NCBI GenBank assembly: GCA_021234155.1
Contig: JAJEKV010000036.1
Coordinates: forward strand, 3,533,182-3,597,181
Length of the DNA stretch: 64,000 nt
Origin: Isoetes taiwanensis
Lineage: Eukaryota > Streptophyta > Lycopodiopsida > Isoetales > Isoetaceae
Direction of reading: 5' to 3'
The notes under the pieces are model-generated. The model saw only the letters and a list, made by a program, of their open reading frames with translations. It searched no databases and was not told the origin of the DNA. Within the stretch, counting starts at the first letter, position 1. Each line of letters opens with the position of its first letter. This document shows positions 5,155 to 38,692 of this stretch, in pieces. Made by a program: the position numbers and the translations under genes.

Positions 5155-6600
5155 TGTGACGTTCAAACACGATAACGGTCCCAGGGGCGATATATTATGC
5201 AAGCATCATCACGCAGCGTACGCGCCATCCCTTGGAGATTGACGGTATGCGCAAGGGGCGTGTAGCTAAGCAAGTAGCGCCCTAGGGGGCAACTTGCAAG
5301 TGTGTGCACATTTATTCATGTTTGCACTTTAGCCCACTTAAATAATAAGTGGGCAAGTGGGCCAAGTGGGGGCTACATCTACTTCCCCCACAAGGGCAAG
5401 TGGCATGATCTCAAGGGTTGATGGAAACCCTAGCCCTAACTTATAGCCTATGTAAGGTATCCAAACCCTAACTTTCCATTTTCGTCCATAGCCTTCTAGA
5501 GCTCCATTTTGCTTGCTCCAAGAGCCAATCTTGGCTCCCAAAGTCTATCTGAGCAGCCTAGCTCATCAGCTTTCCTTTCTGGCTGCATCTTCAAGCAGCT
5601 CCGCAGCATGGACACGTTCAGAGCAGGAGGAGCAAGCCAGGGATCAGGTATTTTGCCAATTCAATAGTCTAATCTGCCTTCCAGGCATAGAGTAAGTAGG
5701 TTTATCCTATTGAATTGCCTATAGAAGCCATCTAGACCTCTATATATCAAGCCATAACTAAAGAACCTAACTTTTGTGATTTAGATTAAATCTTATTCTT
5801 TAGTTCTTCTATGATATGTATGTGATGATCTCTGTGGAATCATTGTATTGGGAAGGGGGGTAGAGGTCCTAAAAGCCCAGTAATTTGATGCTCCTAGCTA
5901 GTCCTCTTTAATGCACTATTAAATTCGGCCTGTGTACAAGAACCACACCGGCGTGGGTGGAGGACGGGCTTAACAAGAGGTTCATGTCACGGCTCATGAT
6001 CCGTCCCTCCGTAGTAAAGCACTGTCGGGGACCTGATTGCACTAGACCTAATGCTCTGCTGCGTCACGGGCTTTGCATGGGTTCGACACTCTTGGGGTGG
6101 TGTACACCTTCCGGGGAGTTAGGTCGGGTACGAGGCGGTGGCCCCCTAGTCACCGAGCCGACCTCACGGTGGGAGCAATCCTACCCGCCCCATCCCTAAA
6201 CCGGGAGATGCAACCCGGGAGGGCGGATGGGGAGAACTACCCAATTGCCATGTTCCTATACCAACTCCACCATTATTGCACTCACAATACGCTTGACCCT
6301 CACGAGAGCCAAGCTTGTCAGTCCATCCCAGTAATGCCAACTTGGGTAGACCTTCCATATGTGATGTACTGATCTCTGTCTATGCAGATATGTGGTGTGC
6401 CATCCTTCGTGATGGTCATGTGATGTTGATGTATGTATACTTACATGTATGTTACGCTTCCGCAGCTAGGTAGGCCCTAAGAGAGCCAGGGTAAAATGAC
6501 CCCTTCATTCTTCCCACTGGAACTCGTCAAGAGCTTGTATGGGGGATGAACTCCTGTTTGTATAGGGTGAGTGCACCGTATATGAGTAGGGGACGTCACA
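5155..6600 (+). mobile_element. 3' LTR of a Ty3/gypsy-type retrotransposon
   Basis: The segment starts TGTGACGT and ends ACGTCACA, a perfect 8-bp inverted terminal pair with canonical TG...CA ends, directly after a polypurine tract. Its length of 1,446 bp is in the range of long plant gypsy LTRs. Orientation is plus because the tract is on the left. No matching 5' LTR and no polymerase domains are in the window, so this is a 3' fragment, not a complete element. Without the other LTR neither target duplication nor age can be judged. Open frames inside it (such as 5957-6372) have no retroelement similarity and are treated as noncoding. Confidence 0.75.
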
Positions 6601-6767
6601 GACCCTTTTTGGATTAGGTTAACCACTTGGCCAAATGGATTCATGCCATTTGGAAAATGGGGTTCCCGGGGTTTGTTGTATATGTTTTATTAACATGCAT
6701 AACATTCGAGGTTGCCCCCCTAGGTGCAACTCTTGGCCCCTAGGTGCAACGTTCTTTGGCTCTCAAG

Positions 6768-6848
6768 TACATGTCATCTATGACATGTACGTGTGATGTG
6801 GCAGTATAATATACGTATTCGGAGCATATATTATGCTGGAACGTCACA
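6768..6848. repeat. Boundary repeat of the 4.1-kb duplication, copy 1
   Basis: GTACATGTCATCTATGACAT and the following bases form a palindrome with 11-bp arms and a 2-nt loop (6768-6791). It is followed by a 57-bp block that begins TGTGATGT and ends ACGTCACA. Diverged copies lie at about 10878-10963 and 14918-15000, that is, at each boundary of the duplicated segments. They may mark the recombination sites. Confidence 0.6.
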
Positions 6849-7188
6849 ATGTTGACTTTGTGTCTGATATTAAACTCGTATAACATTCAATCCTTGCATT
6901 GTAGTACAAAAAGGAGATAGCATAATTGTTGCATAAAGCATATATAGTGTGAATTCATGATAATTATAGTGCCTGCATAATCCGTTGATAGAAATGTGAG
7001 CTTGCACAACCAGATCATTATTTTGCCCTTGACTAGTTTACATTTGCAACTTGCTCGAGTAATTTGCATCTCCTTATCCACAGAAGATTGATAGCATTGA
7101 TATGACCAAGAAATGCAAAATATTGCACCCAAGCATCTAGCAAATCCAAGACCTGCCTGTTGTTCTTAGTTTGTGACAGGCAGTCAAA

Positions 7189-7670
7189 TCAAAAATCAAA
7201 ATTCCAAAAAAGTTGCACATCTTTCTGCAAAAAGCATTCTTGAACATTGTGTGCAGACATTCTTGAGCGGGATTCAAGCATCAAATCCCAAAAAGAAGTT
7301 ACCTTTATCGAGTTAGAAAATTTGACTCTCTGCCAGGGATATTGACCAAAAATTGACCTGGTCAGGGATGCATTTTTGAGAGGCTTGCTCCAATCAAAAT
7401 CTATTTGACTTTTTTCCCAACATCCTTCAAGGTCTTGAGTAGCCTTAACATCAAAAATTATGATGATACCTACTCTGGACAACATTTGGCATCTATTCTT
7501 GCTAGGCAGACTTTTTTTTTCTTTAGGGAAAGTGGTTCATAATCATTGTTTGAGCATTTTGCTTGGGGATTTTCACTCAGAGTGGTTGCCTTGAGTAACC
7601 TGGAGGTTCTAAACCACTGAGGTTGAAGGTTTGCCAGGAATACCTTCAACAGGGAGCAAGCACAAATCAC
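7189..7670 (-). other. Minus-strand open frames upstream of LINE A, unknown
   Basis: Two adjoining minus-strand frames (98 and 66 codons) match one continuous frame in copy B at 11352-11878, differing by a frame break near 7480-7510, where a poly-A/T run differs in length. The product is rich in aromatic and basic residues and I recognise no domain. It sits opposite and upstream of the endonuclease remnant. It could be a fragment of another element into which the LINE inserted, or a chance frame copied by the duplication. Confidence 0.25.
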
Positions 7671-7737
7671 GAGAATAAACGAGATAAGTGGTTAGTGGAT
7701 ACAAACAGCGAGATCACAAGATTGGAAAAGAAGTACA

Positions 7738-10293
7738 GAAAACAAGGCGGAAATCAATGCCAAAGGCGAGTTACTGATAGAGGTATGCACAATGGTAGGG
7801 GTCATTATAGCCAACGGGGTACAAAGATGGAGTGGATCAGGGGAATTCACGAGTCAGAATACACATGGGAAAAGCATAGTTGATTATGTAATCTCAAATG
7901 TCAAAGCAGCGACAGACATTTCAAGCTTCGTACTGCATTGGCCAACTGGAAAATGGAAGAGCCACAAACCCATCCAACTGGCAATAGAGCAAGAGGAACA
8001 GGCACAGACGGGGGTACCGGACAAGGAAAAGGTCACGAACATGAAAATATACTTCCAGAATAAACATGCAGAGATCTTCACAGAAGAGGTCAGATCAAAA
8101 ATGGATAAGTAGGCATGGGAGAAGCATGGAGCAGACGAGAATAGGAACAGGCTGGATGACATAATAGTGAAGGTGGCGACAGACATCTTCGGGAAACAAA
8201 AAAGATCCAGGAATAACCAGCCATTCAGTGCCTCAGTATGGTATGATGAGAAATGTAGGAAACATAAAAGGAGAGTCAGAGACCACAAAGGCACGGAAAC
8301 ATATCAAACAGAAAAAGTGGTTTACCTAAGACCGCTGAAATTAAAACGAAAGAAAAACTTATTACAGCACCAATGGGCTGACAGACATGTTAAAAACGCA
8401 GCTCAGGAGGTTCTAGAAGGGACTGAAAGTAAAGGGAGGGAAATAGAAAGTCAGAGAAGACACATCATGATACTTGGGGAATCGAATGGGAAAAATACGT
8501 TGAAAAATTATATAAGACATGGGCCACACCGATGCCAATACCCACCCCACCCAGAACAAATAAGTCGTGCTTCCGCATGCAGGAAGTGATGGTAGCACTA
8601 CAGAAAATGTCTAATAACAAGGCCACCGAGATATTCCATGGCATAATCAACACAGGGCTACCAGATAGATGGACATACAATAGGGTAACACTCCTGCACA
8701 AGGGGGGAGACAGAGACGAACCAGGAAACTACAGGACGATAATTAAGCTCTATCTTCGCGAAGTGGTTCGGGAAGGTACTGGATAGTAAACTGAAGCACT
8801 GGGTCGAAATAGAAAAGCGAAGAGCACAAGGGCAAGCAGGCTTCAGACCTGAACACTCAACCACAGATCATTTGGTAACCCTTTGAATACAAATAGAGCA
8901 AAGCAAATCACAAGGAAAGAAGATAATATGCTGGTTCATGGATTTCAGAAAAGCATTCGACACCGTCCCAAGGGAAAAGCTGTTGCAGAGATTAGTAGAC
9001 ATGGGGGGCCCAGAAGACATGGTAGGGTCGATCGCACGATTATACCAGAGAGTGTATGCCAAAATGGAACAGGAAGGACAGACAATAGATTGTGACACAG
9101 GAGTTAAACAGGGGTGCCCATTATCCCCGACACTATTTGCTATTTACATTGATGCATTATAAAGCTTCATAGAAGAAAGGCAAGGGAATGCGCACGCCCC
9201 CACCCTGGGGGATACTAGGGTACCTATCATGTTGTATGTGGATGATCTAGGCATGATGGCTACCAAAAACAAGGGTATGCACAGGTTATTAGGGCTTTAG
9301 AGGTCTTCTGTAATAGGACAGGCTGACAGCGAACCTAGCAAAGATCAAAATAGTCACTTTCGGCACCAAGAGCAGACACAGAATATGGGGGCAGAACTGG
9401 AAGAATCGGCATAACACAAATACCTGGGATACGACGCACACGGTACAGGCAAATGGTATAAGGGAACAGATGGCAGATTCCAGTCAGCCATAGGAAGCTA
9501 CTTCAATATGAAAAACTTCTGTAACAGGAGCAGAATAATTGATTGGGAGATCAAATGCTACTTGTTTAATACAATGGTCGCGTCGACACAACTATATGGA
9601 TCAGAGGCATGGGGACCCTGCCTATCAGACAAGAAATGGGATAAACAAGAAGGGATTTTCAGGCAATGGCATAGGCAGGAATTTAGAGTGCGGTCAAACA
9701 CACCCCTGGCAGTCATGGTATATGAGATGGATCAGAGACCAATGGAGGTAAGAGCTTGGGAAAGGACCATCAGATATTTGCTGAAAGACAGCATTAGAGG
9801 ACACACTTGAAAATTATCAACAATCGCAATCAGCGAATCGGCCAAATCACATATCGTCACAGGTAATGGGTGGTTCAGGGAAGTAGCAGTATGGACCAGA
9901 AAGATGGGTTTGAATCTGAGCGACCTAGTAAGTGATGGGAAATGGAATGAAGATTGGGCCGACAGAGTGACAAGAGCATGGCTACAAAAACACAGCGGTC
10001 CGAAAACACTCTGGTTGACAAAAGTCTTCAACCCGGACCAATAGATAGGACAACAAATGTAAGCCCGCAAAAACCCAGCTAAAAGCTGATGATAACGACG
10101 CACCACTGCGCGGCCACGATGCCGATTATAAGCGGGGTGCTGGTATCAATAGAAAATAAGACAAGCCCTCTGGAAAGGCTACAATGTATCAGCATGCAGC
10201 ATTAATAGCACCTTTTGAGGAGCTCGCCCATGCTACGTCAGTCCGGGGGCCTCAGGGCACTAGGGACAATAATTCTATTCTATTATATTCTTA
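7738..10293 (+). pseudogene. LINE (non-LTR retrotransposon) relic, copy A
   Basis: Plus-strand remnants appear in order. First comes the C-terminal part of an apurinic-type endonuclease domain (7738-7990, with the GKSIVDYVISN and HKPIQ motifs). Then comes a reverse transcriptase: the LLHKGGDRDEPGNYRTI block near 8693-8745, the motif FMDFRKAFDTVPREKL near 8935-8982, GVKQGCPLSPTLFAIYIDAL near 9102-9161 and the active-site YVDDL near 9235. A connection region with a KYLGY remnant and a C-terminal basic region follow. The endonuclease N-terminus is missing. Stops at 8110, 8884 and 9160 and several frameshifts kill it. The 3' end carries a TTCTA repeat instead of poly(A). Confidence 0.85.
10271..10293 (+). 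repeat. Pentanucleotide 3' tail of LINE A
   Basis: After GGCACTAGGGACAATAA the element ends in an interrupted (TTCTA)n run. The equivalent site in copy B has a cleaner, longer run. Tails of short repeats in place of poly(A) are known for several LINE clades. Confidence 0.75.
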
Positions 10294-10786
10294 TTCGCAG
10301 AAGTACCATTCTGGTGCTGGTGAGCATAAATGGTTGATAATAATGCTAAATCTACAGTTGATAGCTCCAGTTGATGTTTAATATGTTATTAGTCATGCAT
10401 AAATTGAATAATATGATTGACTAGGAATTTATGCATTTGATTGAACTTAATAATTTTCTAAATCACATTCACATGCATACTATAATTGATCATTTTTTTT
10501 AATCAAAGATTGTCATCTTGACGACATTTGAACTCTAAACAATTGGTATTCGCTACACGAGTCGATGAAGAGAAATGTTCGCGGCGACCTTGGCCGTCGC
10601 AATAAATTTCCTCTATTACCTAAGTTACATCATATATATTGATACTAATGGTAGTAAATATTTTTACGTATATAATAATACGACAAGTGCCATCGTTGCC
10701 ATGCACTCCCATACTAGCGTATCCTTGTGCAGCCACCACCCATAGGCTCTCGACATGTAGGCTACCTACGTGGCATGCATGTGTCT

Positions 10787-10851
10787 GTGACGACCATCTT
10801 CATATTACCCATGTGACGACCATATGGGTATAATATGAAGATGGTCATCAC
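10787..10851. other. Long hairpin in the duplicated flank, copy A
   Basis: The left arm GTGACGACCATCTTCATATT pairs with a right arm ending GAAGATGGTCATCAC around a short centre containing CCCAT/ATGGG. The stem is about 27 bp with few mismatches. It lies about 500 bp downstream of the LINE tail. The copy B version at 14822-14888 pairs slightly better, having gained or kept two extra bases. It may be a tiny foldback element; a small-RNA precursor is less likely. Confidence 0.7.
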
Positions 10852-11351
10852 AGTGTTGAGTGACGCATATACTAACCTTGTACATGTCATCTAGGTGACA
10901 TGTATTGTGATGTGGTAGTATGAGATACGTATTCATGGCATATAATATACTGGAACATCACAATTGCAGGGCTTGGGCACACATCCTTCTCTCACACATG
11001 GTGAAAGTATTATGTGAAAGTATTATGTTGACTTTGTGTCTGATATTATACTCGTATAACATTCAATCCTTGCATTGTAGTACAAGAAGGAGATAGCATA
11101 ATTGTTGCATAAAGCATATATAGTGTGAATTCATGATAATTATAGTGCCTGCACAATCCATTGATAGAAATTTGAGCTTGCACAACCAGATCATTATTTT
11201 GCCCTTGACTAGTTTACATTTGCAACTTGCTCGAGTAATTTGCATCAACTTACCCACGAAAGCCAATATTGATAGCATTGATATGACCAAGAAACGCAAA
11301 AAAGTGCACCCAAGCATCTAGCAAATCCAAGACTTGCCTGCTGTTCTTAGT

Positions 11352-11878
11352 TTATGACAGGCAGTCAAACCAAAAATCAAAATTCCAAAAAAGTTGCACA
11401 TCTTTCTGCAAAAAGCATTCTTGAACATTGTGTTCAGACATTCTAGAGAGGGATTCAAGCATCAAATCCCAAAAAGAAGTTACCTTTATCGAGTTAGAAA
11501 ATTTGACTATCTGCCAGGGATATTGACCAAAAATTGACCTGGTCAGGGATGCATTTTTGAGACGCTTGCTCCAATCAAAATCTATTTGACTTTGTTCCCA
11601 ACATCCTTCAAGGTCTTGAGTAGCCTTAGCATAAAAAATTATGATGATACCTACTCTGGACAACATTTGGCATCTATTCTTGCTAGGCAGACTTTTTTTT
11701 TTCTTTAGGGAAAGTGGTTCATAATCATTGTTTGAGCATTTTGCTTGGGGATTTTCACTCAGAGTGGTTGCCTTGAGTAACCTGGAGGTTCTAAACCATT
11801 GAGGTTTAAGGTTTGCCAGGAATACCTTCAACAAGGAGCAAGCACAAATCACGAGCATAAACGAGATAAGTGAAAACA
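11352..11878 (-). other. Minus-strand open frame, copy B, unknown
   Basis: One uninterrupted minus-strand frame covers this region and continues to 11984, antisense to the LINE endonuclease start. In copy A the same region is split into two frames. A frame of about 175 codons conserved across a duplication could be a real fragment of an older element, but the two copies are too similar for conservation to mean selection. No domain is recognised. Confidence 0.25.
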
Positions 11879-14340
11879 AGGCGGAAATCAATGCCAAAGG
11901 CGAGGCACTGATAGAGGTATGCACAATGGTAGGGGTCATTATAGCCAACGGGGTACAAAGATGGAGTGGATCAGGGGAATTCACGAGTCAGAATACACAT
12001 GGGAAAAGCATAGTTGATTATGTAATCTCAAATGTCAAAGCAGCGATAGACATTTCAAGCTTCGTTCTGGCAGATTGGCCAACTGGAAAATGGAAGAGCC
12101 GCAGACCCATCCAACTGGCAATAGAGCATGAGGAACAGGCACAAACGGGGGTACCGGACAAGGAAAAGGTCACGAACATGAAAATATACTTCCAGAATAA
12201 ACATGCAGATATCTTCACAGAAGAGGTCAGATCAGAAATGGATAAGTAGGCATGGGAGAAGCATGGAGCAGACGAGAATAGAAACGGGCTGGATGACATA
12301 ATAGTGAAGGTGGTGACAGACATCTTCGGGAAACAAAAAAGATCCAGGAAGAACCAGGCCTCGGTATGGTATGGTGAGGAATGCAGGAAACATAAAAGGA
12401 GAGTCAGAGACCACAAAGGCACGGAAACATATCAAACAAAAAAAGTGGTTTACCTAAGACTGCTGAAATTAAAACGAAATAAAAACTTATTACAGCACCA
12501 ATGGGCTGACAGACATGTTAAAAAAGTAACCCAGGAGGTTCTAGAATGGGAAAAATATGTTGAAAAATTATATAAGACATGGGCCACACCGATGCCAATA
12601 CCCACCCCACCCAGAACAAATAAGTCGTGCTTCCGCATGCAGGAAGTGATGGTAGCACTACAGAAAATGTCTAATAACAAGGCCACCGAGATATTCAATG
12701 GCATAATCAACATAGGGCTACCAGATAGATGGACATACAATAGGGTAACACTCCTGCACAAGGGGGGAGACAGAGACGAACCAGGAAACTACAGGACGAT
12801 AATGGTAAGCTCTATCTTCGCGAAGTGGTTCGGGAAGGTACTGGATAGTAAACTGAAGCACTGGACAGAAATAGAAAAGCTAAGAGCACAAGGGCAAGCA
12901 GGCTTCAGACCTGAACACTCAACCACAGATCATTTGGTAACCCTTTGAATACTAATAGAGTAAAGCAAATCACAAGGAAAGAAGATAATATGCTGCTTCA
13001 TGGATTTCAGAAAAGCATTCGACACCGTCCCAAGGGAAAAGCTGTTGTAGAGATTAGTAGACATGGGGGCCCTAGAAGCTATGGTAGGGTCGATCGCACG
13101 ATTATACCAGAGAGTGTATGCCAAAATGGAACAGGAAGGACAGACAATAGATTGTGACATAGGAGTTAAACAGGGGTGCCCATTATCCCCGACACTATTT
13201 GCTATTTACATTGATGCATTATAAAGCTTCATAGAAGAAAGGCAAGGGGATGCGGACGCCCCCACCCTGGGGGATACTAGGGTACCTATCATGTTGTATG
13301 TGGATGATCTATGCATGATGGCTACCAAAAACAAGGGTATGCACATGTTATTAGGGCTTTAGAGGTCTTCTGTAATAGGACAGGCTGACAGTGAACCTAG
13401 CAAAGATCAAAATAGTCACTTTCGGCACCAAGAGCAGACACATATCCTTCAAGTATATGGGGGCAGAACTGGAAGAATCGGCAGAATACAAATACCTGGG
13501 ATACGATGCATACGGTACAGGCAAATGGTCTAAGGGAACATATGTCAGATTCCAGAATATAAAAAACTTCTGTAACAGGAGCAGAATAATTGACTGGGAT
13601 ATCAAATGCTACTTGTTTAATACAATGGTCGCGTCGACACAACTATATGGATCAGAGGCATGGGGACCCGGCCTATCAGACAAGAAATGGGATAAACAAG
13701 AAGGGATTTTCAGGCAATGGCATAGGCAGGAATTTAGAGTGCGGTCAAACACACCCCTGGTAGTCATGGTATATGAGATGGATCAGAGACCAATGGAGGT
13801 AAGAGCTTGGGAAAGGACCATCAGATATTTGCTGAAAGACAACATTGGAGGACACACTTGAAAATTATCAACAATCGCAATCAGCGAATCGGCCAAATCA
13901 TATATCACAGGAGGTGGTTGAGGGAAGTAGCAGTATGGACCAGAGAGATGGGTTTGAATCTGAGTGACCTAGTAAGCGAAGGGAAATGGAATGAAGATTG
14001 GGCCGACAGAGTGACAAGAGCATGGCTACAAAAACACAGCGGTCCGAAAACACTAGCTGACAGAAGTCTTCAATCCGGACCAATAGATAGGACAACAAAT
14101 GTAAGCCCGCAAAAACCCAGCTAAAAGCTGATGATAACGACGCACCACTGTGCGGCCATGATGCCGATTATAAGCGGGGTGCTGGTATCAATAGAAAATA
14201 AGACAAGCCCTCCAGAAGGGCTACAATATATCAGCATGCAGCACTAATAGCACCTTTTGAGGAGCTCGCCCATGCTACATCAGTCCGGGGGCCTCAGGGC
14301 ACTAGGGACAATACTTCTATTCTATTCTATTCTATTCTTA
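11873..14340 (+). pseudogene. LINE relic, copy B
   Basis: Same order as copy A: endonuclease C-terminus (11873-12130), reverse transcriptase (about 12430-13310) with FMDFRKAFDTVPREKL near 12997, GVKQGCPLSPTLFAIYIDAL near 13164-13223 and YVDDL near 13298, then the connection region with EYKYLGY (about 13482) and the C-terminal region. The longest intact piece is 12304-12948 (214 codons). The endonuclease catalytic end that usually reads SDH-x-P has become SRRP here and SHKP in copy A, so that active site is lost in both. Stops at 12247, 12946 and 13222 match those in copy A. Confidence 0.85.
14313..14340 (+). repeat. (TTCTA)n 3' tail of LINE B
   Basis: CACTAGGGACAATAC is followed by about five uninterrupted TTCTA units, then TTATTCGCAG, the flank shared with copy A. 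This fixes the 3' end of the LINE inside the duplicated segment. Confidence 0.8.
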
Positions 14341-14821
14341 TTCGCAGAAGTACCATTCTGGTGCTGGTGAGCATAAATGGTTGATAATAATGCTAAATCT
14401 ACAGTTGATAGCTCCAGTTGATGTTTAATATGTTATTAGTCATGCATAAATTGAATAATATGATTGATTAGGAATTTATGCATTTGATTGGACTTAATAA
14501 TTTTCTAAATAACATTCACATGCATACTATAATTGATCATTTTTTTTAATTAAATATTGTCATCTTGACGACATTTGAACTCTAAACAATTGGTATTCGC
14601 TACACGAGTCGATGAAGAGAAATGTTCGCGGCGACCTTGGCGTCATAATAATAAATTTCCTCTATTAAATTACATCATATATTTTACTAATGGTAGTAAA
14701 TATTTTATAATAATACGACAAGTGCCATCGTTGCCATGCACTCCCATATTAGTGTATCCTTTTGTAGCTACCACCCATAGGCTCTCGACATGTAGGCTAC
14801 CTACATCGCATGCATGTGTCT

Positions 14822-14888
14822 GTGATGACCATCTTCATATTATACCCATGTGACGACCATATGGGTATAATATGAAGATGGTCTTCAC
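14822..14888. other. Long hairpin in the duplicated flank, copy B
   Basis: GTGATGACCATCTTCATATT continues into ATACCCAT, and pairs with ATGGGTAT followed by AATATGAAGATGGTCTTCAC across a roughly 9-nt loop. The stem is about 29 bp with about one mismatch. It matches the copy A hairpin at 10787-10851. Confidence 0.75.
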
Positions 14889-15141
14889 AGTGTTGAGTGA
14901 CGCATATACTAACCTTGTACATGTCATCTAGGTGACATAATGCGTGATAATGGCGATTATGAGATGCATTATTCATGGCATATAATGTACTGGAACATCA
15001 CAATTGCAGGGCTTGGGCACACATCCTTCTCTCACACATGGTTCACCCCACGCGTAGAGGCAGGAGTGTGTTGCACAACCTATGCCGAAGTTGGTAGAAG
15101 ATTGGCATAAAAGCAGATGTATCGATATAAATCCATAGACT

Positions 15142-15683
15142 TTTATTGAGCACTTTGTATAATGTCTGCAATTGTGGCTAGAATTTGGAGTTTGATTGCG
15201 AAGAATCATCGCCGCGAACTTGGCGAGCACTTGTTTTTGCAGAATGGAGGATATAGTGGAACTTCACATGCTCGGTATGAAGGTACCACAAGGCAGAGCA
15301 TATACTTTCATGCACCATCACAATGTTCTGGTGCCAAAGGATCTGGTGGTCATCTCGCATCATGAAGTCTTTGATGGGTAGTTGCCACTCCCATATCCAG
15401 AGATAAAGATAGGGACACTTGTGAGGTTGTGGGTGCTTTTATTCTCTGGCACAAGAAAGATATTAAAGGTCTATTCGAGGAGACACATGTCGTTTGCACC
15501 CCTCCATCACAGATTAAACGTATCAATTGGCAATGCCAAGAGAATGGTGCCTTTGAAGGTCAAGAGGCCGACACATTGCAGAAGATCTCGAGAGACGAGC
15601 TCACTCTATTGCATGAATGCTGCAATCTGGCTTACGCATCTGGCATCATTATTTTTATAGATCCAAATCATGATGTAGGTGAT
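15142..15683 (+). repeat. Dispersed repeat with decayed coding, copy 1
   Basis: Closely matches 40285-40789 on the same strand. The pieces read as one broken protein: MEDIVELHMLGMKVPQG, then HHNVLVPKDLVVISHHEVFDG, then a frame with GAFILWHKKDIKGLF and a long hydrophilic tail. The arrangement (GxAxxF...hinge...PLPYP...GAFILWHKKDI) resembles the short domain often found with plant En/Spm-type transposon proteins (DUF8039-like), but I cannot confirm that. In-frame stops show it is not functional. Copy 1 keeps about 47 bp that copy 2 has lost. Confidence 0.55.
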
Positions 15684-16248
15684 GTGTCTGCATCGCCCAA
15701 TTGCAGAGAAAGCCCGCATCCACCATCGCTATTGGTGAAAAAAAATGTCCGGTGGAAAATGTTTTACATGCGTAATTAAGCCCGTGAGTGTATTACGTTT
15801 TGATATTTTTCGGCCCGTCGGATTCTCGGGTCGAGAAAAAATATCTTGGCCGGGCCGCCCGGCCTCGGCGATTGCACTTCAGCGGCTCCGGCGCTCTGCC
15901 CAGCCGCCTCGAATTTTTACCGGCCGGAATCTCTCCGGCCAGAAAATTATCTAATACATAATAGCGATTATTAGATTTCATCTCATAATCTTCTTTATCC
16001 ACGTGGATTCGACACGTGGGATTAGGTCCGCGAGAACACGTTAAAACCTAATATAGGGGAGGGTGCCCATGAAGCGCCCACTTAAAGAAATATATTTTAT
16101 TATGATGGACAATTTTTTTTTTAAGTCCTCTTCTTAACATACCATATTGAAGCTTAAGTTCTTAGGTTTCAATTGATCCCACACAACAGAGTTTTCGATA
16201 AATTTGGCGTTGGCTAGGAAGGTTTTAAGTCAGGAGGCTAATTTAACC
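15684..16248. other. No gene; GC-rich island at 15810-15945
   Basis: A short GC-rich island contains GGCCGGGCCGCCCGGCC and CCGGCCGGAATCTCTCCGGCC self-complementary blocks. It stands out from the surrounding AT-rich DNA but has no recognisable gene. It could be a fragment of a GC-rich element. Confidence 0.35.
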
Positions 16249-16250
16249 CC

Positions 16251-16359
16251 AATAGACCACATTTACCCTTCAATGGACCACAAAGTGCCCTTTAATGGAC
16301 CACTAAGTACCTTTCAATGGACCACATGGGACCTCCAATGGACTACATTAGAACCTTCA
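16251..16359. repeat. 22-bp minisatellite, five units
   Basis: Five consecutive units start AATRGACYAC at 16251, 16272, 16294, 16316 and 16338 (approximate). Each is about 22 bp and they differ by several bases. No coding role is seen. Confidence 0.8.
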
Positions 16360-18210
16360 AGAGCCAACTATCTACTTGCGAGGCAACACTAATTATACAT
16401 CAACTTTTTTTTATAGATATATGTCTCACACTATTCTAGAAGCCTGGCATGGCCCTAAATCTCCACCATAAAGGTTTCCAACCTTCATGGTCCAAGGTTA
16501 ACACGGTGTAAACCCAGTTATCTATCTAACGAAGACCTAAGGAATTTGATAAGTGAGAAGTTAACGTGCAGAGTTGATCATCAGTTATGTATTAATGAAC
16601 CTCATTGGAGCTTCTGGACTTTTACTAAAAGCTGTGTTGTATCCTTTACATAACTTGTTTTCATCAACTCGGCAGCCAATTATACAGGTTGCTTGCAGTA
16701 GATTAAGGGTCTCATTTACTTGTGTACTTCTTTGTTGATCCATTCCGTCTCTTCTTATGCTATGCAGATGGTTCATTGCTGTTGCCTTGGTAGTACAGTA
16801 GGACTCCAACTTGTTTGGGTACCTTATGCACTGCACAATATGACACCATGGCTGTCCTTGTGCTGGCACCTTTCTCAAAATGACTTGTTGTTCAAAATGA
16901 TGTCCAGCCCTCAGTGCACACATTGGATGGTAATGAGTCAAAAACACTTGGGACTAGAACAGTCAAGTTTAGAATTCATCTTAACGAGAAGGGCCTGCAC
17001 CTGTTTGCCTACTGCTAGTGCAGCATGAGTGGCACATGTAATGGTGCCTGGCAAAAACCCTTCTGCTTGCACTAGCTGGAAGTTATAAAGGGCGTGCTTT
17101 CCGAACCCATGCTGTGCATATGCTGCAATAATAGAATCCCCTGAAACTAAACTGAGGCATCTGTTGAAGTAGCTTCTAGGCTTCTTCTAACTTCCCATGA
17201 TGTACATATCAAAATCAATCGAATTCCATGTCATAACATTTTGCAAAGGGTTGGTATCAAATACTGTTTTGGCAAATTGAAGAATGCCACATCATGTAGT
17301 GGCATACTACACTTTGCAAAATGTACAAAGGTGAAAAGAAATCATCAAAAGTTGGATACCTGCAAAGGACAGAAATCAGGAAACCAATGTCATATTCAAG
17401 CCAAAAAATAGAATGCAACCAACAAAACAATGCATGAAGCTGTGATGGATCTAACAGAAAAGACTGAAGAAAAACTGAAGAAAAAACATGCAAGGTTGTG
17501 TTGCAAATCTTTCTTGAAGATTAGGAGGTGGATGTACAGTTCCAACCTTGCAAACGTAATATTGGCATAAGATTTCTTGATGTTCTCAATTCAATCTGTA
17601 TGCCCAGTTGTCTAAAGATATATCTCATACATAATATCTCAGCATGTAACAATTAAAATGCATGGGAATAGAAGGTTCAGTTACCTGATTGAGCTATAAA
17701 TCGTCATTTGAGTCTTTATCATTATCCGAATTGGTAAAGAACACTATCTTCAACACTGCTAAAAGCTTCAGCCCCTTGGAAATGTAACAGAAATTTCTTT
17801 ATGCTTGCTTGGGTCATTTCTATCTTTGCCAGGGTCTTACTATTCATTCTACACAAATCTAGTAGCTGTGCCTTAGTCAACTGAGTGTCACTGTGCTCCA
17901 GGTGATTCCACATCAGCAACTAAATCAACCTGACAATTTTTTGAGAACTGGACTACAGAGCAATGAGGATCAATATGTATTTTTTTTATCTGAAGTGATA
18001 TACCAATGATCATGATGCACTGTCGAGGTAATAGATAAAAAGAACAGAGGACTGGATAAACAAGGGCGAAGTACCTATGTTGCGCAAAAGATCAATGATG
18101 AATTGTTGAGATGATAGAGAAAAAAGACAGAGGTCTTCTTAGCAAGTCAGTTGTGGTACGAGTATAGATCAAGAATAACTATTCAGTGTGATGAAGCTGG
18201 TACAAGGAAA
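16360..18210. other. No gene recognised
   Basis: Short frames on both strands (up to 120 codons at 16585-16947 minus) lack domains or splice support. The sequence is ordinary AT-rich DNA. It could include the upstream region of the gene at 18571. Confidence 0.4.
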
Positions 18211-18218
18211 GAACAAGG

Positions 18219-18232
18219 ATATATATATAACC
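18219..18232 (+). promoter_or_regulatory. Possible TATA box of the downstream gene
   Basis: GGATATATATATAACC lies about 340 bases upstream of the ATG at 18571. It is the only strong TATA-like string in the stretch. This assignment is inference; the 5' leader length is unknown. Confidence 0.25.
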
Positions 18233-18570
18233 AGTGTGCTGGAGGAGTACACAAGAAAGCCGGTGTGATGAAGCTATCCTAGAAGAAAAACAAACCTGAT
18301 GGCAACCTTAAGAGGAGCTCCTCTCTGCTGCTCCATCGCATCCATAGCCTACCGGAACCCTGTCGCCAAAATTTGCTCTGTCGCCAAGCGTCGGAGGTCC
18401 AAATGGAGGAAATAGGTGGGCGTAAAAGGGCCAAAGGGTGGGCGAAGGAAGGGCAAAAAATGGGCGTTGGGCGGAAGAAGGGCACCCTCCCCTAAAACGT
18501 TGAACGCAAGAACGCCCAACAAATTGAATCCGGAACGACGAGTCGACGGGTTTGCTTTTTGGCGGCTCCA

Positions 18571-19320
18571 ATGTCGATAGCGGATGATTTCGATTTCGGG
18601 GAATCCGATGTGATGTTGTTGGAAGTAAGTATGCGTATGTCTTCTGAAGGTTTATCAGGTTAACGATTTCTTTTATCATATTCGAGCGTTTGATGCAGCC
18701 AGATGTTGTTTGGTATATGTTTTGAAGTTTTATTAGGTTAACGACTTCTTTATTCATAACTAGCGTGTTTTTGCAGCAAACCCTTGGTTTTCGCCTTAAA
18801 ACGTTTCGCGAGTTTGTAAGTATAGGTTTTGAAGGTTTATTAAGTTAAGAACTTCCTTACTCAGTCTTGAGCTTTTTAAATGCAGATGAAAATAAAGGAC
18901 ACACTTGTAAGTCTTTTTTTTTGAAGGTTTGTAAGGTTAAAAAGAACTTCATTTATACTAGATTTTTTTAGCTTAAGAGAGCCATTGTTGTAAGTTTTTT
19001 CTTTGAGGGTTTATTAGGTTAATGACTTCTTTATTCATACTTGAGTGTTCTAATTGCAGTCAGATGACGAATGCTTTGATTACTATGACAAAATGATGGC
19101 CGAATTTGCCGAAATGGTAAGTTCATTTCGAAGGTTTATTGGGTTAACAACTTCCTTATTCACTCTTGAGATTTTTAAATGCGGGGAGGCTGACAAGAGG
19201 AGGCAGCCTACTATTACACGGTTGGAGACTCATGATTTTGAAGAAGACCTTCGGACTGTGGCGTTATTGGGTATAACCTACCACCATATTTCCAGGGGGA
19301 GCATTATGAGGAGGGATTAA
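18571..19320 (+). CDS. Seven-exon gene with six homologous tiny introns
   Basis: Predicted exons: 18571-18624, 18699-18707, 18777-18815, 18886-18906, 18972-18989, 19060-19116 and 19189-19320. Every exon is a multiple of three, so all six introns are phase 0, and the spliced frame is open from the ATG (context CCAATGTCG) to TAA at 19318. The product is about 109 residues: an acidic N-terminus (MSIADDFDFGESDVMLLE), a short basic middle (QTLGFRLKTFREF) and an acidic stretch (SDDECFDYYDKMMAEFAEM), then a basic-acidic C-terminus ending GSIMRRD. I recognise no domain. Five introns start GTAAGT; the second starts GTTTGG, placed by alignment to the others. The last acceptor is weak: the expected TGCAG reads TGCGG, and AG at 19187-19188 is used in the model. 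If that intron is retained the frame stays open, because it is 72 nt without a stop. The coherent phase across seven pieces argues for a real gene, but expression is unproven. Confidence 0.6.
18625..19188 (+). repeat. Six homologous introns (introner-like)
   Basis: Introns at 18625-18698, 18708-18776, 18816-18885, 18907-18971, 18990-19059 and 19117-19188 (74, 69, 70, 65, 70 and 72 bp). All share, in order, a GT donor, TTTTGAAGG, TTTATTAGGTTAA, a GACTTC block, TTTATTCATACTTGAG and a T-rich end with TGCAG (TTTTAG in the fourth). The similarity covers almost the whole of each intron, far more than splice signals require. GAAG...CTTC inside each copy can form a small stem. The copies differ from each other at many sites, so they are not brand new. 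Confidence 0.8.
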
Positions 19321-19669
19321 AATTGGTATGAATCTTTGCTTTATCAAAGTTTTGGGCAAAGAAGATGGTACATCATTACCTATAGACAATGTTGTTCTTT
19401 GTTATTATTTTGCTTTTAACCTTTTACGTTTCCTCTTGCATCGGAGATTATGTAGGGGGATTGCATTTGCTCCCCCGATTGCTGTTTGTGATGAAAACTC
19501 AAGAATATGCACTGTTTTCGCTTTCGGATTAGGTACCATAGAGCACAAGGTCAGCTGAAAATACGAATCATAGGGTGTATGTTTAAGATACTTTAACCAA
19601 AGAGTGTTTATTTTACAGGGGGTGGAAATAGGAATTAGAGAACGCTGACAACTAGGGTCAACCAGGAGC

Positions 19670-37165: not shown

Positions 37166-38600
37166 ACATTATAATATAGTAATATAGGATGTTTTAGCGT
37201 GTTGTATCAAGCCCTAATTTGAACGATTGTTATCATTTGATTGCATCCAAAGGCCGAGATTTATTGCACAGTTTTCCACTATCGTGATTGGTCATGCTTT
37301 GATCTCTGAAGGGGGAAGGGAAAAAGAAAAAGGGAAAAAGGAAAAGGGAAAAGAAAAGGGAGAATGTACGGGCCAAAAGGCAAGGAAAAAAGGGAAAAAG
37401 AGAAAAGGAAAAAAGACATGGGAAAAAGAGAATGAGGGAAAGGGTGAGGGAAGGGGAAAATGGCATGGGAAAGGAGAAAGGAAAAGAGAAACGAAAAAGG
37501 GAGGGGGAAAGGGAAGGAGAAGAAGAAAAGGGTGGAGAAGGGAGGAAAAGGAAAGGGAAAAAATAAAACAGGAAAATGGTGAAAAAGGGAAGCAAAAAAG
37601 GGCATGGGAAAAAAAAGGAAAAAAGAAAAAGGGGAAAGGGGGAAAGGGAACCTGGGAAAAAGGGTACAAGAAAGTGGACGGGGAAAGGGGGAAAGGGAAC
37701 CTTGGAAAAAGGGCGCAAGAAAGAAGTGGAAGGGGAAAGGGAAAAAGGGAAGAGCACGGAAAAAAGGGGAAGATGGAAAGGATAAAGAAAGGGGAAAAAA
37801 GAAACAAAAAAAACATGGGAAAAGGGAAGGAAAAAAGGGGAAGAGGGAAAGGATTTGGAAAGGGAAAAAAAAAATGAAAAGGAAAAGGAAATGGGAAAGG
37901 GAAAGCGAAAAGAAAAAGTCAGGGGAAATGGCAAGGAAAAAGGGCACCGGGAAAGGGGAAGAGGAAAAGGGTGGCGGAAAAGGGAAACATGAAAATGATG
38001 GGGAGAAGAGATAGAAAAAAGGAGAACATGAAAAGGACATGGAGAAAAGGGAAAAAGGAAAGGGAAAGGAAGAAGAAAAGGGGAGGGGGAAAGGGTGAAA
38101 GGGAACTTGAGAAAAATGGCATGATAAAGAGAGAAAGAGGGAAAAGAGAATGGAGAAAGGGCACGAGAAAAAGGGGAAGAGGGAAAAGGTGAAGAAAGGA
38201 AAAACTGGAAGAAAAAAACGAATGGGAAAAGGGAAATGGAAGAAAAAAGGGGGAAGAGGAAAAGGGTGGAGGGAAATGGGTATAGGAAAAAAGGGAAGTG
38301 GAAAAATGTGTTGAAAAGGGTCTGAGAAAAGAGAAAATCAAAAGAAAATGAATGGACAAAGGAGAAAGGAAAGGGAAAAGAGCACGTCAAAAAGAGGAAG
38401 AGGGAAAGGGTAGGGAATGAAGGGAAAGGGAAAGGGAAAGGGAAAGGGAAAGGAAAAGGTCCATCATGAAAAAGGAAAGTGAAAAAGCTATGAAAAAAGG
38501 TAAAAGAAGAAAAAAAAACGTGTGATGAAAAGGGCAACGAAAAGGGAAAAAAGAGAGGGTAAAAGCGGGGTAGCACAAATAACAAAGGGAAAAAGAAATG
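37166..38600. repeat. Dispersed repeat with 1.3-kb polypurine tract
   Basis: From about 37312 to 38600 the plus strand is almost all A and G, built of GGGAAA-, GGGAAAAAGG- and GGCATGGGAAAAAG-like units with only occasional C or T. A local tandem pair of about 55 bp lies at 37628-37745 (GGGAAAGGGAACC in each). The left flank (37166-37311) matches 51768-51901, where the same flank leads into a polypurine run of only about 125 bp. The tract has therefore expanded in this copy. The long frames covering it (458, 253, 216 and 174 codons) are low-complexity artefacts. Polypurine mirror sequence of this kind can form triplex DNA. Confidence 0.85.
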
Positions 38601-38692
38601 GTTTTTCAATACTTTAACAATGAAGTACTTTTGGGTTATTCATGCTCTCTTCTCTCATTACTACAATGTATCATTTACAGGTTCTCAACTTA

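Follow-up and report, generated by a model that had tools for sequence, protein, structure and literature searches.

A predicted lycophyte gene with six homologous introns

The 64,000-nucleotide stretch of the Isoetes taiwanensis genome that we analysed (the window) contains a small predicted gene whose six short introns are recognisable copies of one another. We regard the architecture of this gene as real and as unusual for a land plant, but see no introner invasion in it. The account that we favour, which we hold with about as much confidence as doubt, is that the six introns arose long ago, when an exon-intron module was duplicated in tandem inside a gene for a small, fast-evolving orphan protein.

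A repeat analysis of the window delimits six GT...AG units on the plus strand between positions 18625 and 19188, with lengths of 74, 69, 70, 65, 70, and 72 nt. They lie in tandem, in a single orientation and a single phase, and are confined within one gene. An earlier note on this DNA had described six look-alike introns of 65-74 bp, which are recovered here, and the distances between successive intron starts (83, 108, 91, 83, and 127) match its figures exactly. Pairwise identity over whole introns is 60-85%, with introns 3 and 6 as the closest pair (85%). The likeness ceases at both splice sites, and beyond the GT and the AG the neighbouring bases resemble each other no more than shuffled sequences do. 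The units have GT...AG ends with a consensus donor and acceptor, as U2-type spliceosomal introns do; five of the six start with GTAAGT and make up 5 of the 13 plus-strand occurrences of this hexamer within the 64 kb. The intron middle, TTTATTAGGTTAA, leads into a branch-site-like TTAAC string in introns 1, 2, and 6. The five internal exons measure 9, 39, 21, 18, and 57 nt, each a multiple of three and all in phase 0, which bears out the earlier description of exons of 9, 18, and 21 bp between phase-0 units.

Searching the whole genome with the introns, the exons, and the protein places this gene in a family of five loci, on contigs C1041 (the window copy), C1019, C1072, C510, and C966. The features of the window copy, some of them defined by comparison with its paralogues, are:

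18571..18624 (+), exon 1: from the putative start codon onward, MSIADDFDFGESDVMLLE; open frame
18625..18698 (+), intron 1: 74 nt; homologous unit, GTAAGT...TGCAG; alternative donor GTATGT at 18635
18699..18707 (+), exon 2: 9 nt, or 14 nt with the donor at 18713
18708..18776 (+), intron 2: 69 nt; homologous unit; donor GTTTGG, or GTATAT at 18713
18777..18815 (+), exon 3: 39 nt, QTLGFRLKTFREF; open frame
18816..18885 (+), intron 3: 70 nt; homologous unit
18886..18906 (+), exon 4: 21 nt, MKIKDTL; open frame
18907..18971 (+), intron 4: 65 nt; homologous unit, the most divergent of the six; ends in TTTAG
18972..18989 (+), exon 5: 18 nt, LKRAIV; open frame
18990..19059 (+), intron 5: 70 nt; homologous unit; 100% identical in C1019
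19060..19116 (+), exon 6: 57 nt, SDDECFDYYDKMMAEFAEM; open frame
19117..19188 (+), intron 6: 72 nt; homologous unit; TGCAG acceptor lost in the window copy (TGCGG, 19180-19184)
19189..19320 (+), beginning of exon 7 in the window copy, from the alignment of the five copies; early stop TAA at 19318-19320
19321..19558 (+), remainder of exon 7: out of frame in the window, open in C1019 and C1072
19561..20260 (+), 3' flank: common to all five paralogues; divergence between that of the introns and that of the exons

Introns 1 and 2 each have a second possible donor, GTATGT and GTATAT, respectively, that would likewise preserve the frame (exon 1 plus exon 2 = 78 nt); the GTATAT of intron 2 agrees with the register of the remaining units. 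The TGCAG end that had been described as common to all introns is present in four units of the window copy, but not in intron 4 (TTTAG) or in the last (TGCGG); in C1019 it closes five of the six introns.

State of the five copies

The C1019 copy is intact. Removal of all six introns leaves 195 open codons from the ATG, with exon 7 continuing as LRTCGVIAYNLPPYFRGQPYEEGLKF and open to codon 195, and retention of any single intron introduces a premature stop. This length was attained by none of 20,000 letter shuffles and by 0.7% of random cuts of the same size. These observations make the gene model credible, and we infer from them that the transcript is spliced at the six predicted introns. In C1072, exon 7 is also open, within a stop-to-stop frame of 185 codons. 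The middle of its exon 1 is altered and 21 nt longer, in frame; apart from this enlargement, exons 1-6 of the three good scaffolds are equal in length.

The earlier claim that a single frame opens only when all six units are removed holds for C1019 and needs qualifying for the window copy towards its 3' end. In the five-copy alignment, the window has one base fewer near 19256 than every other copy; this frameshifts exon 7, so that the frame stops at 19320. The TGCAG of intron 6, kept in C1019 and C510, is absent from C1072 and from the window copy, which must therefore use one of the two in-frame acceptors left, GGGGAG/GCT (AG at 19187-19188) or GGCAG/CCT (AG at 19205-19206). The frameshift in exon 7 and the weaker splice site at the end of the last intron make damage to the window copy probable, whether through decay or through assembly errors that persist in this stretch.

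Predicted product

Searches of Pfam, NCBIfam, and the PDB returned chance-level matches and no relatives, and the predicted protein is an orphan among these databases. A match to PEX5 (E 1.5) disappeared when a profile was used, and one to cysteinyl-tRNA synthetase (E 0.14) was not significant. Nothing can be learned from the AlphaFold model of exon 7 (mean pLDDT 40). By inspection, the N-terminus, MSIADDFDFGES, is acidic and has no hydrophobic stretch of the kind found in signal peptides, which argues against secretion. At the RNA level, no Rfam family matches in the window, and a conserved structure of the units was rejected (consensus energy -0.4 kcal/mol, no covarying pair).

The introns are restricted to one gene family

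We searched 1,658,258,908 bases in 1110 contigs; the published assembly of I. taiwanensis comprises 1658.30 Mb in 204 scaffolds and 909 contigs and was made from nanopore reads with miniasm, racon, and pilon (PMC8566536). A 25-nt intron core, allowing up to 3 mismatches, gave 23 matches in 1.66 Gb, all of them in the five paralogues and in one fragment (C1072:2974066); the same search would overlook copies with less than about 80% identity over the core. The reversed core, used as a control, gave none in 1.66 Gb, and a wider 34-nt degenerate pattern found no place in the whole genome beyond the five loci and the fragment. Taken together, the DNA, pattern, and protein searches found no copy of the intron in unrelated genes across the 1.66 Gb. 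Introner-like multiplication in the usual sense, which had been proposed from the sequence, does not agree with this distribution. Nor did the genome search find the repeat spread widely outside genes, an outcome that the earlier note had named as speaking against its reading. The upstream and downstream flanks of the gene are likewise low-copy, and this means that no abundant transposon carries the gene as cargo.

The fragment is broken: from the end of exon 1 it runs through intron 1, exon 2, and intron 2 into exon 3, most of which is present, and there meets a piece of exon 7. It lies at C1072:2974000-2974800 (locus L055), flanked by two direct repeats of unrelated sequence, and looks as if it had been captured or filled in during repair.

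Introns diverge more slowly than exons

In a tree of the 30 introns, each position is monophyletic, i.e., introns group by position rather than by locus. The sixfold multiplication therefore preceded the copying of the gene between chromosomes. The tree is nearly star-like and its deep support is weak.

Contrary to expectation, the introns are the slowest part of the gene. Among paralogues on the best scaffolds, divergence is 0.7-1.5% in introns, 3-7% in the 3' flank, and about 5-8% in exons. The window and C1019 differ by 0.7% in introns, 3.4% in the 3' flank, and 4.5% in exons 1-6; the corresponding values between C1019 and C1072, whose introns 3 are identical, are 1.0%, 6.5%, and 7.6%. Comparisons with C966 show the same order at higher levels (about 9%, 16-20%, and 21-25% in exons). 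Exons change 5 to 8 times faster than introns, and the lower divergence of the latter is significant (P = 0.003 to 3e-6). The pattern is not seen in C510, because introns 3 and 4 align poorly there owing to the small indels of this noisy contig.

Nearly all exon changes alter the protein. Exons 1-6 of the window and C1019 differ by nine amino-acid-changing and no silent substitutions, and those of C1019 and C1072 by ten and one. All differences among paralogues in exon 3 change an amino acid, as do the three between the window and C1019 in exon 6. The rate of replacement changes is above that of the introns (P about 5e-4 to 1e-3). With so few silent sites, however, nonsynonymous and synonymous rates do not differ significantly (P 0.4-1.0), and a dN/dS above 1 is unproved. 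Decay of methylated cytosines as the cause of the faster exons is true in part, CG and CHG sites being the most variable, yet every context class shows slower change in introns (at CG sites, 0 of 15 vary in introns and 17 of 40 in exons). That the introns are slower even than the flank suggests that they are under constraint. A length of about 70 nt approaches the minimum for a plant intron, and we speculate that the TTTATTAGGTTAA middle is needed for the splicing of so minimal an intron.

Origin of the six introns

Under module duplication, one ancestral intron would have become six by tandem duplication of an exon-intron module within the gene, which would only later have been copied to other chromosomes. 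Each module would have been in phase 0 at both ends, so the frame would have been kept at each duplication while a short exon, a multiple of three bases long, was added. From then on, the exons would have changed quickly and the introns slowly, perhaps because minimal introns of about 70 nt are packed with splicing signals, until only the introns still resembled copies. Unit duplication was among the alternatives in the earlier note, together with a tandem repeat that later became introns, and it is the best fit to a tandem array in one gene, one orientation, and one phase, with ready-made splice sites and faster exons. Its missing element is likeness between exons. The YCAGATG start reported as shared by exons 2 and 6 is not significant once the number of pairs is allowed for. 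Because the exon ends adjoining the introns show no significant mutual likeness (P 0.17-0.53), we infer rather than observe that the copying unit included an exon. The rates make this absence understandable: with 15-40% divergence between introns at different positions, and a rate 5 to 8 times higher in exons, likeness between exons would be past recognition; the same follows from the 25-30% by which the introns now differ. Fast exons beside still-similar introns in paralogous genes, as in Plasmodium var, are a known source of false introner calls, and such cases are filtered out of introner surveys (Gozashti et al., PMC9860276). Further points weigh against module duplication: the likeness ends exactly at the splice sites, as copying of introns alone would also yield; the deep branches of the nearly star-like intron tree are weakly supported; silent sites are too scarce to establish positive selection on the exons; and the assembly is nanopore-based, with C510 and C966 noisy.

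The main rival is that only the intron was copied, within this gene, into a pre-existing open frame, through some introner-like local process, for example reverse splicing, template switching, or gene conversion among introns. The halt of the likeness at GT and AG with none in the exon beyond, the lack of a protein motif common to the flanking exons, and a star-like tree of the kind expected from a burst all agree with it. It would, however, require a process that struck codon boundaries every time and this gene alone: no other gene in the 1.66-Gb genome has a copy, all six introns are in phase 0, which random insertion would not strongly favour, and no target-site duplication is seen at the six junctions. 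Moreover, a survey of 3,325 genomes reported no introners in any land plant (PMC9860276). We therefore prefer module duplication, for us an even prospect, to copying of the intron alone, which we think unlikely though worth serious consideration. The fuller proposition, that a land-plant gene multiplied its own intron sixfold by intron-only copying and that these introns are more constrained than the protein they interrupt, is somewhat more doubtful still. If copying of the intron alone were true, it would be a local burst of intron gain in a lineage without known introners.

We give less weight to three further readings. The locus may not now be a gene, or may never have been one, the units being either a degenerate tandem repeat or a conserved noncoding element in six copies, with spacers that by chance give an open frame when joined. 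Such elements would be more conserved than their spacers, as the units are, and neither the exons, in which purifying selection leaves no trace (dN/dS not below 1), nor the protein, with no known domain, speaks for coding. We consider this improbable given the 195-codon frame of C1019 with its shuffle and random-cut results and its stop at each retained intron, unit ends that are exactly GTAAGT and TGCAG, and the lack of an RNA fold, covariation, or an Rfam match. An artefact of assembly or polishing, in which exon differences are sequence errors or the array itself is false, finds some basis in the way the assembly was made (PMC8566536) and in the many small indels of C510 and C966. It is very improbable, because the same six-unit array occurs on five independent contigs and the differences between the two best scaffolds, many of them transversions, keep the frame open. 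Hardly credible is an array of leucine-rich-repeat-like coding units on the minus strand, each reading (S/N)KEVxNLINLQN and about 24 codons long. All six units are indeed open in one minus frame with a common KEVVNLINLQN core, but their spacings are mostly not multiples of 3, which breaks the frame between units, and the codon-position signal is weak. No leucine-rich repeat of Pfam matches, the sole hit being a sub-threshold one of 16 residues to a bacterial flagellar protein, and the GT and AG at the unit ends would be left unexplained. The minus-strand open frame at 18625-19188 is probably due to chance plus common descent.

Comparison with other systems

Introners of Micromonas, fungi, dinoflagellates, and others are near-complete intron copies, from splice site to splice site, with no non-intronic remainder (Gozashti et al. 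2022, PMC9860276), as are the units here. The present family differs from them in that copies occur only in one gene and its paralogues and nowhere else in the 1.66 Gb, in having no visible terminal repeats or target-site duplication, in its single phase, and in its host, a land plant, a group in which none has been reported (PMC9860276). Internal duplications of exon-intron modules share with it the tandem arrangement on the same strand, in the same phase, and in one gene, with extra introns that bring ready-made splice signals; they usually retain recognisable exon homology, whereas here only the introns are alike.

Exons outpace introns between paralogues also in Plasmodium var (PMC9860276) and in snake venom genes with accelerated exons (PMC2711939). 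As in these genes, short exon segments are replaced in frame (here exon 1 of C1072), but the product of the lycophyte gene is an orphan and positive selection on it is putative. Many very short 3n exons of the same phase in a gene for a fast-evolving orphan protein are likewise found in aphid bicycle genes (PMC9168663) and schistosome micro-exon genes (PMC4350168). The likeness to these is one of architecture; the present gene differs in lacking a start that resembles a signal peptide, in having no more than 5 internal exons, in its tiny introns, and in its plant host.

With five related copies and six sister introns, the family is a compact test case for intron origin in plants. It is also a caution for introner surveys, since quickly changing exons next to conserved introns can give a false impression of intron mobility.

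Other features of the window

Upstream of the gene, positions 6216-11002 and 11025-16055 each align, at about 85%, to overlapping parts of one C510 region, and 6216-16055 seems to hold a large tandem duplication with units of roughly 4-5 kb. Within it, at 12304-13861, open reading frames in pieces resemble a non-LTR (LINE-type) reverse transcriptase. A 2.45-kb block at 16056-18501 is missing at C1019, C1072, and C510 and is partly present, from 17134 onward, at C966; on its minus strand, 16938-17186 reads like a fragment of a PPR protein. Downstream, 37230-38610 is a purine-rich (GGGAAA-like) tract of about 1.4 kb.
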